The translations under genes were made by a program, and so were the position numbers. From Cytophagia bacterium (lineage in GTDB: Bacteria > Bacteroidota > Bacteroidia > Cytophagales > Microscillaceae): DNA of 41,304 bases. Location of the stretch: NCBI GenBank assembly GCA_004294005.1, contig RDZP01000010.1, positions 1-41,304 of the forward strand, written 5' to 3'. The stretch's first letter is position 1. Every line of letters starts with the position of its first letter. The notes below the pieces were generated by a model. That model was given only the letters and a program-made list of their open reading frames with translations. It had not been told where the DNA came from and ran no database searches. Shown piece by piece: positions 1-8,464 of this stretch.

Positions 1-99
1 ATTTTCAGGATTTACAACAAAAATATTTTGACAGGATTACAAGATTTTCAGGATTTACAACAAAAATATTTTGACAGGATTACAAGATTTTCAGGATTT
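1..99. repeat. 43-bp tandem repeat, 2.3 copies
   Basis: Two identical 43-bp units lie at 1-43 and 44-86, followed by the first 13 bases of a third unit at 87-99. Each unit carries the words ATTTTCAGGATTTACAAC and GACAGGATTACAAG. Within a unit the CAGGATT core occurs twice, so the unit is itself made of two related halves. The array starts at or before the window edge, so its full length is unknown. Similar CAGGATT-type intergenic repeats are common in Bacteroidota genomes as far as I know. No coding function is visible. Confidence 0.85.
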
Positions 100-1243: not shown

Positions 1244-1587
1244 TTTTTATTATAAGTAGTTAAATAAAATTAATATTATATTTTTGGTTTGAATTTTCAG
1301 CAATATTTTGGAGTTTTTTTTAATATTAATAAAAACATTTTCAGAAAAAAGGCGCTGATTTAATTTTTGAACGGTCAAACCCTTGTTGTATTATGGTATA
1401 AACTATTCAAAAACTAAATTGTGTAGCAACAGTTATAAAAACTCTAAAGTTTTCCTTAAAAATTAAAAAAACAACACAAATTATTTATGTTTGGATACTT
1501 ACTATAAAAAAAGATTTTTACAATTAAAATGTAAAAACCTTTATGAGAAAAATGAAAAATTTTCACTTTTGAATTATATGAAACTTG
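1244..1587. other. Gene-free interval between hydrolase and tRNA-Leu
   Basis: This AT-rich stretch of about 340 bases has no convincing gene. A short stem AAAACT-CTAA-AGTTTT at 1438-1453 could terminate the minus-strand tRNA transcript, but it lies more than 130 bases downstream of the tRNA. The ORF-track frame 1491-1772 covers the tRNA and is not a protein gene. Confidence 0.6.
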
Positions 1588-1669
1588 TACGAATGAAGGG
1601 ACTCGAACCCCCACGCCTCGCGGCACTAGATCCTAAGTCTAGTGTGGCTACCAATTACACCACATTCGC
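1588..1669 (-). tRNA. tRNA-Leu (anticodon UAG)
   Basis: The reverse complement folds as a class II tRNA. The acceptor is GCGAATG / CATTCGT with a G-U first pair, and the D-arm carries AATTGGTAG. The anticodon stem CTAGA / TCTAG encloses the loop CTTAGGA, so the anticodon is UAG. A long variable arm (GCCGCGAGGCG) is followed by a T-arm with GGTTCGAGTCC. The long variable arm together with UAG identifies leucine. CCA is not encoded. A good TTTG / TAnnTTTG promoter lies a few bases upstream on the minus strand. Confidence 0.95.
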
Positions 1670-1746: not shown

Positions 1747-2724
1747 TTATGCTTGATGTTTTTCATTTTTAAGCAATGATTCTGTTGTCCATTCTAATTT
1801 TTGCATGAATTTTTTTTGTCTTACTTCACAGTTTCCTATCTGACAAATTGCACATGACGTAGGTAAACAAGGGTCAGCGTGAACAAACATTTCTGTTTTT
1901 TGAGGGTGTTTGACAAGCATCATAGCTTCTAATTTTTTGACTTCATTATGTGTTTTTTCTAAATCCCAATAATGAGGAAGTGTAATATGTGTATCTATAT
2001 GAAGATGTTGTCCATATTGAATGATGCGTAGATTATGAATATCAATCCAAGATTGTTCACGATTTTCATTTAAGATTTTTACTACTTCGTTTAATAATGG
2101 TAAATTTGCCTCGTCCATCACACCTGATGTTGCTTTTCTAACCAAAGATATACCCGTATAAATAATAAAAATAGCAAAAGATGCAGCCAAAAAGCTATCT
2201 AACCAATGTAAACCTGTGAAGTGCATCAAAAGAAGTCCTAATAAAAGCCCAAAACTTGAATAAGCATCAGATTGTAAATGATGACCATCTGCTTGCATCG
2301 TCATTGACCTTTGTTTTTTTCCAACAAATACTAAGTAATAGCCCAATAGAAAATTAATCAACGTAGAAATGATTGTAAGAATAATACCCAATAATAATTC
2401 TTCAATTTTATGTGGATAAATAAAAGAGTGAATAGATTTCACTATCATACTCAGACCTGCTAATGCGATTAAACCACCTTCAAAACCCACAGACAAAAAT
2501 TCTATTTTCCCGTGTCCATAAGGATGATTTTCATCTTTGGGTAAATTTGCTAAATATAAACTAAATAATGCAAAAGAGCCTGCCAATATATTGATGATAG
2601 ACTCGAGTGCATCGGTCAATATTGCATCAGATTTTGTAATAAAATAAGCCCAAAACTTAATTAGCATTAAAATAATACTAATAATAAGTGTTTGAGCTAA
2701 TATATATTTTAATTTATGGGGCAT
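1747..2724 (-). CDS. Cation diffusion facilitator (CDF) metal transporter
   Basis: This 325-residue inner-membrane exporter of divalent metals belongs to the CzcD/FieF-type CDF family. Its N-terminal half is hydrophobic with about six membrane segments. The conserved metal-site motif TDALES (Asp38) is in helix 2, HPYGHG is at 67-72, and HxxxD (His149, Asp153) lies in ADGHHLQSDAYSS. A cytoplasmic C-terminal domain follows. The tail has a clustered Cys motif (CLPTSCAICQIGNC), an extension I would not expect in every CDF and a plausible extra metal-sensing site. The start codon directly follows the stop codon of the upstream HisA-like gene, so the two are probably co-transcribed. The metal cannot be predicted from sequence alone. 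Confidence 0.9.
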   Translation of the reverse strand: MPHKLKYILAQTLIISIILMLIKFWAYFITKSDAILTDALESIINILAGSFALFSLYLANLPKDENHPYGHGKIEFLSVGFEGGLIALAGLSMIVKSIHSFIYPHKIEELLLGIILTIISTLINFLLGYYLVFVGKKQRSMTMQADGHHLQSDAYSSFGLLLGLLLMHFTGLHWLDSFLAASFAIFIIYTGISLVRKATSGVMDEANLPLLNEVVKILNENREQSWIDIHNLRIIQYGQHLHIDTHITLPHYWDLEKTHNEVKKLEAMMLVKHPQKTEMFVHADPCLPTSCAICQIGNCEVRQKKFMQKLEWTTESLLKNEKHQA

Positions 2725-3444
2725 TTATAAAAATTTTTTTAAATCACTTAATTGAATTTTACCTTCATAAAAGGATTTACTGAAAATAACACCATATACA
2801 CCTAATTCTTCTAATTTTGCAATATCATCGGCATTACGAATACCTCCACAGGCTAAAAAATTAACTTCTGGAAATTGCGTGATAAGTTCTTGATAAAGTT
2901 CAAATTTAGGACCTAACATTGTGCCATCTCTTTCTATTTCTGTTGTTTTTACATAAGAAACACCCCTTTCTGTAAAGTTAGCAATGTGTTCGAACAAATT
3001 AATGCCTACATTATTTTTCCAACCTTTTGTTCTTACAATATTATCTAAGGCATCAGCTGCCAAAATAATTTTATTTGCACCATAAGAAATCAACCAAGAC
3101 TTAAATTTTTCAGGTTCTTCGATAGCCACAGAAGCAAGTGTCATTGTTTTTGCACCAAATTCGAAGATAGTTCTTACATCACCGTCACTCGAAATACCGC
3201 CTGTATAGTCAATATTAAGTTTTGTATATTTGGCAATAAGTTCTAAAATAGGATAATTAACAACTCGTCTTTGTTTTGCGCCATCAAGGTCAATGATATG
3301 CAAGTGAGTAAGCCCTGCATCTTCAAATTCCATTGCTAAATCCAATGGATTTTTATCATAAATAATCACATCATCAACATCGCCTTTGCGTGTTTTTACA
3401 ACTTTGCCACCTTTGATAGGCATGGCAGGTATTATTTTTATCAT
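2725..3444 (-). CDS. HisA-family TIM-barrel protein lacking the first catalytic Asp
   Basis: This is a phosphoribosyl isomerase-like (beta/alpha)8 barrel. HisA converts ProFAR to PRFAR in histidine synthesis. Family marks are present: EDAGLTHLHIIDLDGAK, the first phosphate loop around TGGISS, TEIERDGTMLGP and the second phosphate loop LACGGIRNADD. The second catalytic Asp is kept (Asp131 in LAADALDN). The N-terminal catalytic Asp is not: the usual IPAIDI reads IPAMPI, with proline at residue 9. The gene stands outside any his operon and abuts a CDF transporter gene. I chose the ATG at 3444 (239 aa, MIKIIPA) over the in-frame GTG at 3459 because it matches the family's N-terminus. It may be a HisA paralogue with another or altered activity. 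Confidence 0.82.
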   Translation of the reverse strand: MIKIIPAMPIKGGKVVKTRKGDVDDVIIYDKNPLDLAMEFEDAGLTHLHIIDLDGAKQRRVVNYPILELIAKYTKLNIDYTGGISSDGDVRTIFEFGAKTMTLASVAIEEPEKFKSWLISYGANKIILAADALDNIVRTKGWKNNVGINLFEHIANFTERGVSYVKTTEIERDGTMLGPKFELYQELITQFPEVNFLACGGIRNADDIAKLEELGVYGVIFSKSFYEGKIQLSDLKKFL

Positions 3445-3578: not shown

Positions 3579-4079
3579 TTATTTCTTCGTAATTCTATCA
3601 AAACAAACGATTTCAAAATCAAATTCATTTTTTTCATCTTTTTTATACTCTTGTAAAATAGTTTGATGAAATAAATGAGCATCAAAATCAGGGAAAAAAG
3701 TATCACCTTTGATGGTAGTTTTCACTTTTGTAACCAATAAACAATCTGTAAACGGCAAAAATAAATCGTAAATTTGACTACCACCAATCACAAATAAATT
3801 TTCAATATTTTCTTCTTTTGCTGTATTGATAATTGTTTCTACTGTATAAAACTTTCTTGTATTCTCAACTGAAAAATGTTTTTGTGTTGTCAATATCCAA
3901 TTATCCCGATGAGGAAGTGGTCTTTTTAATGAATCAAATGTTTTTCTACCCATTACTATTGTTTGATGTGTAGTTTGTGCTTTAAAAAATTGCATATCCG
4001 CCGAAAGTTTCCAAGGAATTTCATTATTGATTCCAATTACTTTGTTATCAGACATAGCCACAATGATTGTTATTTTCAT
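3579..4079 (-). CDS. folA: Dihydrofolate reductase
   Basis: This 166-residue cytoplasmic enzyme reduces dihydrofolate to tetrahydrofolate with NADPH, supplying one-carbon units for thymidylate and purine synthesis. The N-terminus MKITIIVAMSDNKVIG, the WKLSADMQFFK segment (the substrate-binding acid is Asp28), the cofactor motif VMGRKTFDSL and FVIGGSQIYD are all typical. Length is normal. It lies 40 bases downstream of pbpC on the same strand with no visible terminator between them, so co-transcription is likely. Confidence 0.96.
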   Translation of the reverse strand: MKITIIVAMSDNKVIGINNEIPWKLSADMQFFKAQTTHQTIVMGRKTFDSLKRPLPHRDNWILTTQKHFSVENTRKFYTVETIINTAKEENIENLFVIGGSQIYDLFLPFTDCLLVTKVKTTIKGDTFFPDFDAHLFHQTILQEYKKDEKNEFDFEIVCFDRITKK

Positions 4080-6551: not shown

Positions 6552-7781
6552 TTATTTTTCGCAGACTACAATGTACTCAAATAGCATTGTGTTTACTGTT
6601 TTACCTGTTTTGTTCGTAGGTGAATTTTTTGAGGGCATTGATTTGCTTGTTAAGGCTCTTTCGTAAGTTACCAAGTGTTTTAGTCCGTTTTCCTCAAATT
6701 TTTCTGCAATAAATTGGTCTGTTGGTAATTGAATATTTTTAACTGTTCTGTTCCCAACTACATAAATAGATTTTCCGCCTTTTTTAATGCTTGACGCTAC
6801 TTTTTTGATTGAATTTTCTAAATCAACATAGAAAGATGAAACTTCTAAGGCTCTTTTTTTATCTAATATTCCTACTTCTGCAATGTAATCAGTCATTATG
6901 CCACTTTCATACATTTGTTTTGATTTTACGCCTCCCATTAACATTCCGTCTATTTTCCTTGCGTAATCTATGCCTGTCCATTCGTTTGAAAGCGTAGAAA
7001 ACTGTCCGTATGCAACCGTTGTACGACTATCTCCGTAAGGTGGACTTGTCAAAACAACATCAAAACTATTTTCTGAAACTTCAAATGCTGAATAATTTAC
7101 ATTAACATTCACTTCATTTGTTAGTTTTGGAAAATAAATATTGGTATAAATAAAAATAGTATCATTCAATTTTTTAAAGTAAACACCAAAAACATCAGGA
7201 TTAAATTTTAGAATATCCTCTGCTTTCATTTTAAAAAGTTTAAATTCATTATTTCGAGTAAATGAACATTCTCTTACAGTTTCAGAAAAAGGAAGTATAA
7301 AAAAATTTCTAACTTGTTCATTCTCAATTTGAAAAATGAAATGTTTTAGAATATTTAAGTTATTTAGAACTTCATTTGAAAACCAAAAATGAGGATTGGT
7401 AACATTTGGTAAAGGCAATTTTTCTAAATTATTCTCGTCTTTCACAAATTCGAAAACAGCATCACGCAATTTAATTTTAGTTTCAATAATTGTATCTACT
7501 GAGATTTTTGTAAATTTTACTTTTGAAATCAAAATAGCCAACGGGTTCATATCAAAACCAAACATTTCGGTAATGCCACACTCCAAACCACTCGCAAAAG
7601 AAGAACCTGAACCACAATAAGGGTCAAGTAGTTTGCCTTCTGAAATATTAAACTCTTTCAACAACTCAATACCAATTTGGGGCAACATAGTTGCAGGATA
7701 TTTATGCAAATTTGGGTAATTTGTTGCATAAGATTGTCCTATAAAATCGTACTTTTCATTCCGTGTGATTTCGTATTTCAT
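6552..7781 (-). CDS. Type II DNA methyltransferase (probably N4-cytosine), MvaI/BcnI-type system
   Basis: This 409-residue SAM-dependent DNA methyltransferase should protect host sites from the neighbouring endonuclease. Motif I, DPYCGSGSS, begins at Asp53; motif IV, TSPPYG, is at 245-250. TSPPY is typical of amino-methyltransferases and favours N4-cytosine. Motif I precedes motif IV by about 190 residues, leaving room for a target-recognition region. The N-terminal HKYPATMLPQ segment resembles the HPYPAK region of related methylases. Its ATG overlaps the endonuclease stop codon by one base (TAATG), which suggests translational coupling. The specificity is inferred from the partner: CCWGG or CCSGG-like sites are known for MvaI and BcnI. 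Confidence 0.85.
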   Translation of the reverse strand: MKYEITRNEKYDFIGQSYATNYPNLHKYPATMLPQIGIELLKEFNISEGKLLDPYCGSGSSFASGLECGITEMFGFDMNPLAILISKVKFTKISVDTIIETKIKLRDAVFEFVKDENNLEKLPLPNVTNPHFWFSNEVLNNLNILKHFIFQIENEQVRNFFILPFSETVRECSFTRNNEFKLFKMKAEDILKFNPDVFGVYFKKLNDTIFIYTNIYFPKLTNEVNVNVNYSAFEVSENSFDVVLTSPPYGDSRTTVAYGQFSTLSNEWTGIDYARKIDGMLMGGVKSKQMYESGIMTDYIAEVGILDKKRALEVSSFYVDLENSIKKVASSIKKGGKSIYVVGNRTVKNIQLPTDQFIAEKFEENGLKHLVTYERALTSKSMPSKNSPTNKTGKTVNTMLFEYIVVCEK

Positions 7782-8464
7782 TATGTTAAATCTTGAATAC
7801 TTTTAAATAAAAAAGGCAATTTATCTTCATAAGTTCTAAAACCTGTTCCGTGATTTCTTGCCATAGTACCTTTATCGTGTAAACGTAAATCTACTAAAAC
7901 ATTCTCTTCTCTAAATTGGTCTGCTAATAATTCGGGTGAAGTTTCCCTCATTAATTGGCAACGATAGTAATGAAAATACTCTAAGCCATCTCTTTCCTCT
8001 GTAAATGCAGAAACAAACATTAGCGCAGGCATTTTTTGCATAAATCTTTCTGCAAGAGTTGCAAGTTGCCAAGTAGCAACTACATTGCCTGATGTGTGTC
8101 TAACAGAAATTTCTGTATCCAAAACTTCTAAAAATAATCCTGCACTATTGGGTTTTAACGACATTGTATAGTACAAACCCTGTCTACCATCTTTGTCCAA
8201 AGAGCCATATTTTTTGACTGCTTCGAGTGGTGGCATTTTCCAAACTTTGCTGTTGAAAGTGAACAAAGTAATTAAACTTTTCCCTTTTGTTCTATGTGCT
8301 TTTAGTTCTGCACCTTCTATGTCGGGGTGTGCATCATTGTTTTCACTTATTCCTAAATGAGTTTCCAGAGTATGCCCAATTCCTGTTGGACCCTTTCTCG
8401 TTGTTGAAATGAAACCTTTTGCTTTAATTTCCCTGAATTTAGTCTGAAATTCCTCTATTGTCAT
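7781..8464 (-). CDS. Type II restriction endonuclease, MvaI/BcnI family
   Basis: This 227-residue protein matches the MvaI/BcnI PD-(D/E)xK endonuclease family. Marks are RKGPTGIGHTLE near residues 23-34, a catalytic triad with the same spacing as MvaI (Asp48, Glu53, Lys55 in PDIEGAELKAH), KSLITLFTF, and the C-terminal HGTGFRTYEDKLPFLF. Known members cut CC/WGG or CC/SGG and act as monomers; the exact site here is not predictable from sequence. It is the first gene of a two-gene operon with the methyltransferase. There is no controller (C) protein gene. Base composition is like the surroundings, with no strong sign of very recent transfer. Confidence 0.85.
   Translation of the reverse strand: MTIEEFQTKFREIKAKGFISTTRKGPTGIGHTLETHLGISENNDAHPDIEGAELKAHRTKGKSLITLFTFNSKVWKMPPLEAVKKYGSLDKDGRQGLYYTMSLKPNSAGLFLEVLDTEISVRHTSGNVVATWQLATLAERFMQKMPALMFVSAFTEERDGLEYFHYYRCQLMRETSPELLADQFREENVLVDLRLHDKGTMARNHGTGFRTYEDKLPFLFKSIQDLT

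Follow-up and report, generated by a model that had tools for sequence, protein, structure and literature searches.

The gene at positions 2725..3444 (minus strand) of the window, a term used here for the whole 41,304-nucleotide stretch of DNA that was analysed, encodes a 239-residue protein of the HisA fold (termed ‘HisA-K’ in what follows) that belongs to a new, order-wide and strongly conserved family of HisA paralogues with a rebuilt active site. The family is marked by a coupled exchange of two residues: the general-base aspartate of HisA, at position 9, is gone, and a lysine (Lys166) is found on strand beta6. HisA-K very probably does a different job from HisA, and it is almost certainly not a ProFAR isomerase. 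Its reading as a HisA-derived, lysine-dependent enzyme that would act on a phosphorylated substrate, most plausibly through imine chemistry of the class I aldolase kind, is put forward as a close call that falls slightly short of an even prospect.

Identity and fold of HisA-K

The open reading frame and its translation (which begins MIKIIPAMPIKGGK, with the motif IPAMPI at the N terminus) put the start codon, an ATG, at 3444; translation might also begin at an in-frame GTG (3459), but the relatives use the ATG. The protein matches PF00977, the HisA/HisF fold, with 199 bits, and its score of 198 bits on TIGR00007 lies under the HisA equivalog cut-off of 228.95 bits, a value exceeded by the HisA of a Cytophagales order-mate that served as a control (259.8 bits). 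Identity to the HisA proteins of order-mates is 37-44%. An AlphaFold2 model, built from the window sequence together with those of relatives, has a mean pLDDT of 93 and a pTM of 0.90, and the nearest solved structures to it are those of Salmonella HisA (TM-score 0.92).

An earlier note on this DNA had read IPAMPI in place of the usual IPAIDI, so that a proline would stand where the catalytic aspartate is expected. The reading frame bears this out: Pro9 (codon CCT, 3418..3420, minus strand) occupies the general-base position of HisA (Asp7 in Salmonella, Asp8 in Thermotoga), and two congeners share the motif. The substitution is no chance event, pseudogene or assembly error, because it recurs in these congeners and the aspartate is missing from every one of 72 non-identical relatives; the ratios of nonsynonymous to synonymous change given below rule out the same explanations. 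The earlier observation was thus right and also understated, as the coupled gain of Lys166 had gone unnoticed.

A coupled substitution and a single clade

Searches of whole genomes, both among relatives and across the order, yielded a sample of 113 non-identical HisA-like proteins, every one of which belongs clearly to one of two groups. Position 9 is never Asp in 72 of them (being S, A, T, W, Y, P, V, L, F or G) and position 166 is always Lys; the other 41 retain Asp9, with I, F, V, L or T at position 166. Among the Bacteroidota HisA proteins compared, Asp9 is present in 40/40 and Lys166 in 0/40, and when the columns of the 72 paralogues are set against those of the 40 HisA proteins (one distant row having been left out), columns 9 and 166 alone separate the two groups completely (JS = 1.00).

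A tree of the homologues, which the earlier note had proposed as a check, places all of the proteins that lack the aspartate in one clade (SH-aLRT 100), and the result is the same after removal of columns 9 and 166. That clade is nested among Bacteroidota HisA in a quick tree; a topology that unites all HisA proteins in one clade is not rejected (AU test, p 0.83). Among the genomes searched, the paralogue clade is found solely in this Cytophagales-type order, within which two-copy genomes occur, whereas a class-wide search found two HisA-like copies in 0 of ~280 same-class genomes outside the order. Within the order, nearly all genomes of some families carry the paralogue, and in other families it was not found. 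The best-scoring matches from other orders, among the matches listed, are all canonical HisA.

Between congeners, the dN/dS of the paralogue is 0.04-0.06, as against 0.15 for hisA in the same species pair of the genus. The paralogue is therefore under strong purifying selection, tighter than that on the genus’s own hisA. Its function is probably important. No earlier account of the family was found in the open literature searched, coverage of which was partial, and the available portion of a survey of his genes across this superphylum (PMC8305728) does not report it.

Active-site residues and phosphate-binding loops

Lys166 (codon AAA, 2947..2949, minus strand) lies on beta6, which in the model of HisA-K comprises residues 164-167, two residues ahead of the HisA Thr. 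In a profile alignment to solved structures it falls on Leu169 of Salmonella HisA, the residue that is changed in the L169R mutant (PDB 5g2h). That mutation abolishes HisA activity and confers TrpF activity (PMC7591586), and in simulations Arg169 touches both Asp129 and the carboxylate of the substrate (PMC9088769); the side chain at position 166 is therefore expected to reach the active site, beside the equivalent of Asp129. This equivalent is Asp131 on beta5 (3052..3054, minus strand), which is invariant in both groups and is the likely partner of the lysine. Lys166 is expected to face the barrel interior alongside it, and there is good reason for confidence that the lysine functions in the active site.

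The same background supplies the main rival to an imine-forming lysine, namely that Lys166 acts non-covalently, either by holding an anionic group, carboxylate or phosphate, on a new substrate or by tuning Asp131, much as Arg169 does in HisA(L169R). The alignment places the two residues at the same site, and the gain of TrpF activity by L169R indicates that a positive charge there suffices to admit a carboxylated substrate, PRA, to the active site of HisA (PMC7591586, PMC9088769). However, Arg replaces Lys in 0/72 paralogues, which is stricter than plain charge binding would need, and isomerisation as carried out by HisA or TrpF would depend on the general base that has been lost. A non-covalent role is accordingly regarded as possible, on the doubtful side.

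The remaining catalytic and phosphate-binding residues have been kept to differing degrees. Asp173 (2926..2928, minus strand), the counterpart of Asp176, which is named as the catalytic acid of Salmonella HisA (PMC9088769), is present in HisA-K, the position being Asp in 86% of paralogues versus 100% of HisA proteins; position 168 in the paralogues is T in 65%, S in 24% and A in 11%. The C-terminal phosphate-binding loop, Gly200-Gly201 (2842..2847, minus strand), is invariant in both groups. The N-terminal loop also retains its glycine pair, Gly82-Gly83 (3196..3201, minus strand), but the column comparison finds positions 81, 85 and 104 unlike those of HisA: residues 81 and 104, Gly in HisA, are Thr and Ala in HisA-K. 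Across the family, position 81 is T/S/G/A (versus G in 95% of HisA), position 104 is A/G/S (versus G in 100%) and position 85 is S/T/R/H (versus Q/K/R), most paralogues having T/S at 81 and A/S at 104, and many having S/T/H at 85. The view of the earlier note that the second catalytic Asp and both phosphate loops remain thus holds for Asp131, Asp173 and the C-terminal loop, and for the N-terminal loop as far as its glycine pair.

Positions 81, 104 and 85 correspond to Salmonella residues 79, 102 and 83, and in Salmonella HisA residues 80, 81, 83 and 102 hold the distal phosphate of ProFAR (PMC7591586). The residues that hold this phosphate are partly changed, so that the second phosphate site, in the N-terminal half of the barrel, has been eroded, and a singly phosphorylated substrate is therefore likelier than ProFAR itself.

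Relation to histidine and tryptophan synthesis

The window derives from a draft MAG, 79.8% complete, whose 217 contigs add up to 2.78 Mb. Besides HisA-K, hisF (on another contig), a GGGPS-like gene and hisG are present; neither hisD nor a canonical hisA was found in this incomplete draft. HisA-K is thus the sole HisA-like gene found in an assembly that has hisG and hisF, as would be expected if it were the organism’s true HisA working by an unusual chemistry. Yet the missing hisA is uninformative, because the draft is incomplete and hisD is missing as well, and two congeners of greater completeness (97% and 91%) each carry hisF, a canonical hisA with an IPAID motif (IPAIDL/IPAIDI) and the paralogue. 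The search for a second, canonical hisA that the earlier note had advised was therefore negative in the window genome and positive in both congeners, an outcome that favours a paralogue. The flanks of the congener hisA are matched on two separate contigs of the window MAG, with a local gene order that differs at both. Matches to a repeat from the congener hisA region are spread over dozens of contigs in the window genome, many of them at contig ends, and ACAGGATTACAAGATTTTCAGGATT is present in two exact copies at the contig end, at window positions 31-55 and 74-98; such repeats are a probable cause of the fragmented assembly.

The wider distribution of the paralogue bears on the same point. 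Seven genomes from four families (G019, G021, G023, G040, G041, G054 and G056) have it together with neither hisA nor hisF, and hisD is absent from eleven paralogue-bearing genomes, namely these seven and G069, G092, G107 and G177. A role in histidine synthesis is ruled out by the presence of the paralogue in genomes that lack hisA, hisF and hisD. With the score under the equivalog cut-off also against it, the idea that HisA-K is the true HisA is scarcely credible. Of the three explanations offered by the earlier note, these data support the first, a paralogue that has acquired a new substrate, given the coexistence of canonical hisA in the congeners, the clade of proteins without the aspartate and the retention of the gene where the histidine pathway is absent; on the same grounds a moonlighting HisA, or a HisA with shifted chemistry, is unlikely.

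A TrpF, or a bifunctional PriA-like isomerase, would make HisA-K the natural counterpart of the L169R experiments in laboratory evolution, with which it shares both the site and the sign of the new charge. The window genome, however, already has a separate trpF of the PF00697 type, on contig C159, and the paralogue is kept even when a genome lacks trpF as well as trpC: in G023 (a single contig, 98% complete), G040 and G056, which also lack hisA and hisF, and in G069 and G107. The base needed for both isomerisations is likewise missing, position 9 being neither Cys nor Asp in any of the 72 paralogues. A TrpF or PriA-like activity is accordingly very improbable; a role in tryptophan synthesis is ruled out by the genomes without trpF and trpC, and the job of HisA-K is neither histidine nor tryptophan synthesis.

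Gene neighbourhood

No his operon lies beside HisA-K, in agreement with the earlier note. Directly downstream is a gene for a cation diffusion facilitator, or cation efflux transporter (1747..2724, minus strand; PF01545, 148 bits), the ATG of which abuts the stop codon of HisA-K with zero gap, and the two genes are probably co-transcribed. The adjacency to a metal exporter that had been pointed out earlier is therefore real, but the zero-gap pair occurs only in the window and at loci L041 and L044, which represent the three members of this genus, and given this confinement a functional link to metal transport is not supported. The upstream neighbour encodes a dihydrofolate reductase (3579..4079, minus strand; PF00186, 185 bits), in the place of which another gene stands at L041, the congener locus where this flank is visible.

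Further along the window are an alpha/beta hydrolase gene near the paralogue (461-1243), a homologue of which (in the congener genome G002, locus L077:1-3714) lies ~2.6 kb upstream of canonical hisA, and a tRNA-Leu gene (1587-1669, minus strand) between the hydrolase and exporter genes. A restriction-modification pair occupies 6552-8464 (minus strand) and consists of an MvaI/BcnI-type endonuclease (PF15515, 142 bits) and an adjoining protein of 409 residues, which is DNA methyltransferase-like in its DPYCGSG and SPPYGDS motifs and has no Pfam match at 1e-5.

A comparison of 67 paralogue loci found a few recurrent neighbours: a divergent lysA-like decarboxylase gene in 9/67 loci (from several families), a sensor kinase with a response regulator directly upstream in 7/67, and purK/purE in 3-4 of 67. 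All three occur together at locus L131, which suggests an ancestral gene order and not a pathway. A single pathway to which the neighbours might point was sought across the 67 loci and rejected, as none is consistent over them; remnants of an ancestral order fit best. Two reduced genomes of 1.5-1.6 Mb without histidine synthesis (G021 and G054; loci L059 and L061) have a two-component system upstream of the paralogue and purK and purE directly downstream.

Varied neighbours, among them in seven loci a two-component system immediately upstream, are what might be seen with a non-catalytic protein of the HisA fold that serves in ligand sensing or regulation (a ‘pseudoenzyme’), as are the loss of the general base and the drift at Thr168 and at Asp173 (86% Asp). 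Against this, a new and invariant lysine beside an invariant Asp131, together with an intact C-terminal loop, would be unusual for a decaying active site, and the constraint on the gene is tighter than that on hisA; a pseudoenzyme is on balance improbable.

A candidate lysine-dependent mechanism

The position of Lys166 on beta6 is also that of the Schiff-base lysine in several class I aldolases of the TIM-barrel type. Lys166 lies on beta6 in the AlphaFold2 model, is invariant, and is in register with the lysine of DERA. For the E. coli DERA the Schiff-base residue is Lys167 (PMC8403123). Comparison by hhalign with a profile of 15 DERA proteins of the same order gives the paralogues a probability of 73.8%, with their VSYVKTT aligned on TDFVKTS in register, whereas a HisA control reaches 24.7% and aligns through the beta7 phosphate loop only, without alignment at beta6. 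The NCBIfam family deoC matches 23/31 paralogues, at a best E of 2.7e-5, and lies outside the top 25 families for 31 HisA proteins in an NCBIfam search. Plain HMM comparison with DERA gives medians of 7.7 bits for the paralogues versus 5.0 bits for HisA, with overlapping ranges. The likeness counts as support and not as proof: its absolute strength is low, a large share of it is the shared phosphate loop, and part comes from the lysine itself.

What DERA and the paralogues have in common is a [YF]-[VIL]-K-[TSC] motif on beta6 followed, in register, by an SGGIR phosphate loop on beta7; outside these motifs the paralogues are HisA-like. The second lysine of DERA (E. coli Lys201, on beta7) has no counterpart in them, the position ahead of the ASGG loop being hydrophobic, and DERA Asp102 has no clear counterpart either. 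A direct replacement of DERA by HisA-K was considered and is ruled out in general, as a separate deoC coexists with the paralogue in many genomes, the window genome included.

The mechanism that is tentatively favoured builds on an active site that has lost the general-base Asp on beta1 and gained an invariant Lys166 on beta6, which would face the barrel interior beside Asp131; ProFAR isomerisation is almost certainly no longer performed. A phosphorylated ligand would be held by the intact C-terminal phosphate loop; an imine would then arise from attack of Lys166 on the carbonyl of this ligand, which would be either a sugar phosphate or a phosphorylated keto acid; and Asp131, Asp173 or both might serve as a proton relay, as in class I aldolases or dehydratases. 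That Lys166 forms an imine is quite possible, by analogy with these enzymes, and is advanced tentatively. The broadest version of the proposal, in which the exchange of one Asp for one Lys on the other side of the barrel turned HisA from an acid-base isomerase into a Schiff-base catalyst, a so far unrecognised class I aldolase-like enzyme in a core pathway of the order distinct from histidine and tryptophan synthesis, is offered with reserve as a possible outcome. The mechanistic case is weakened because Lys201 of DERA has no counterpart and because the gene neighbours give no consistent pathway.

Comparison with known systems

HisA is a textbook scaffold for the creation of new enzymes by duplication and divergence, and L169R is the best-known laboratory step along that route. 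The present family is a natural, ancient and order-wide outcome, in which the general base has been lost, a lysine has been fixed at the site of L169R, and both genes have been kept, the new one under the tighter selection. A practical consequence is that automatic annotation may label such paralogues as hisA, so that histidine auxotrophs seem partly prototrophic. Two residues serve to diagnose the family, and there are complete genomes in which its function could be tested.

With HisA itself (TIGR00007, PF00977), HisA-K shares its fold, its length, both Gly-Gly loops, Asp131 and Asp173; the paralogues differ in the absence of the general-base Asp, the new invariant Lys166, the eroded second phosphate site and the retention without the histidine pathway, and HisA-K scores under the equivalog cut-off. 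Two other members of PF00977, HisF2/AglZ and WbuZ, are likewise paralogues recruited outside histidine synthesis, but these are derived from HisF, and HisA-K scores 79 and 71 bits against their respective cut-offs of 310 and 300. PriA and the laboratory HisA(L169R) have the HisA fold in common with the family, and L169R also places a positive charge at Salmonella position 169; HisA(L169R), however, keeps Asp7, whereas the natural paralogues have dispensed with the base, carry Lys and never Arg at this site, and may be found where trpF and trpC are absent.
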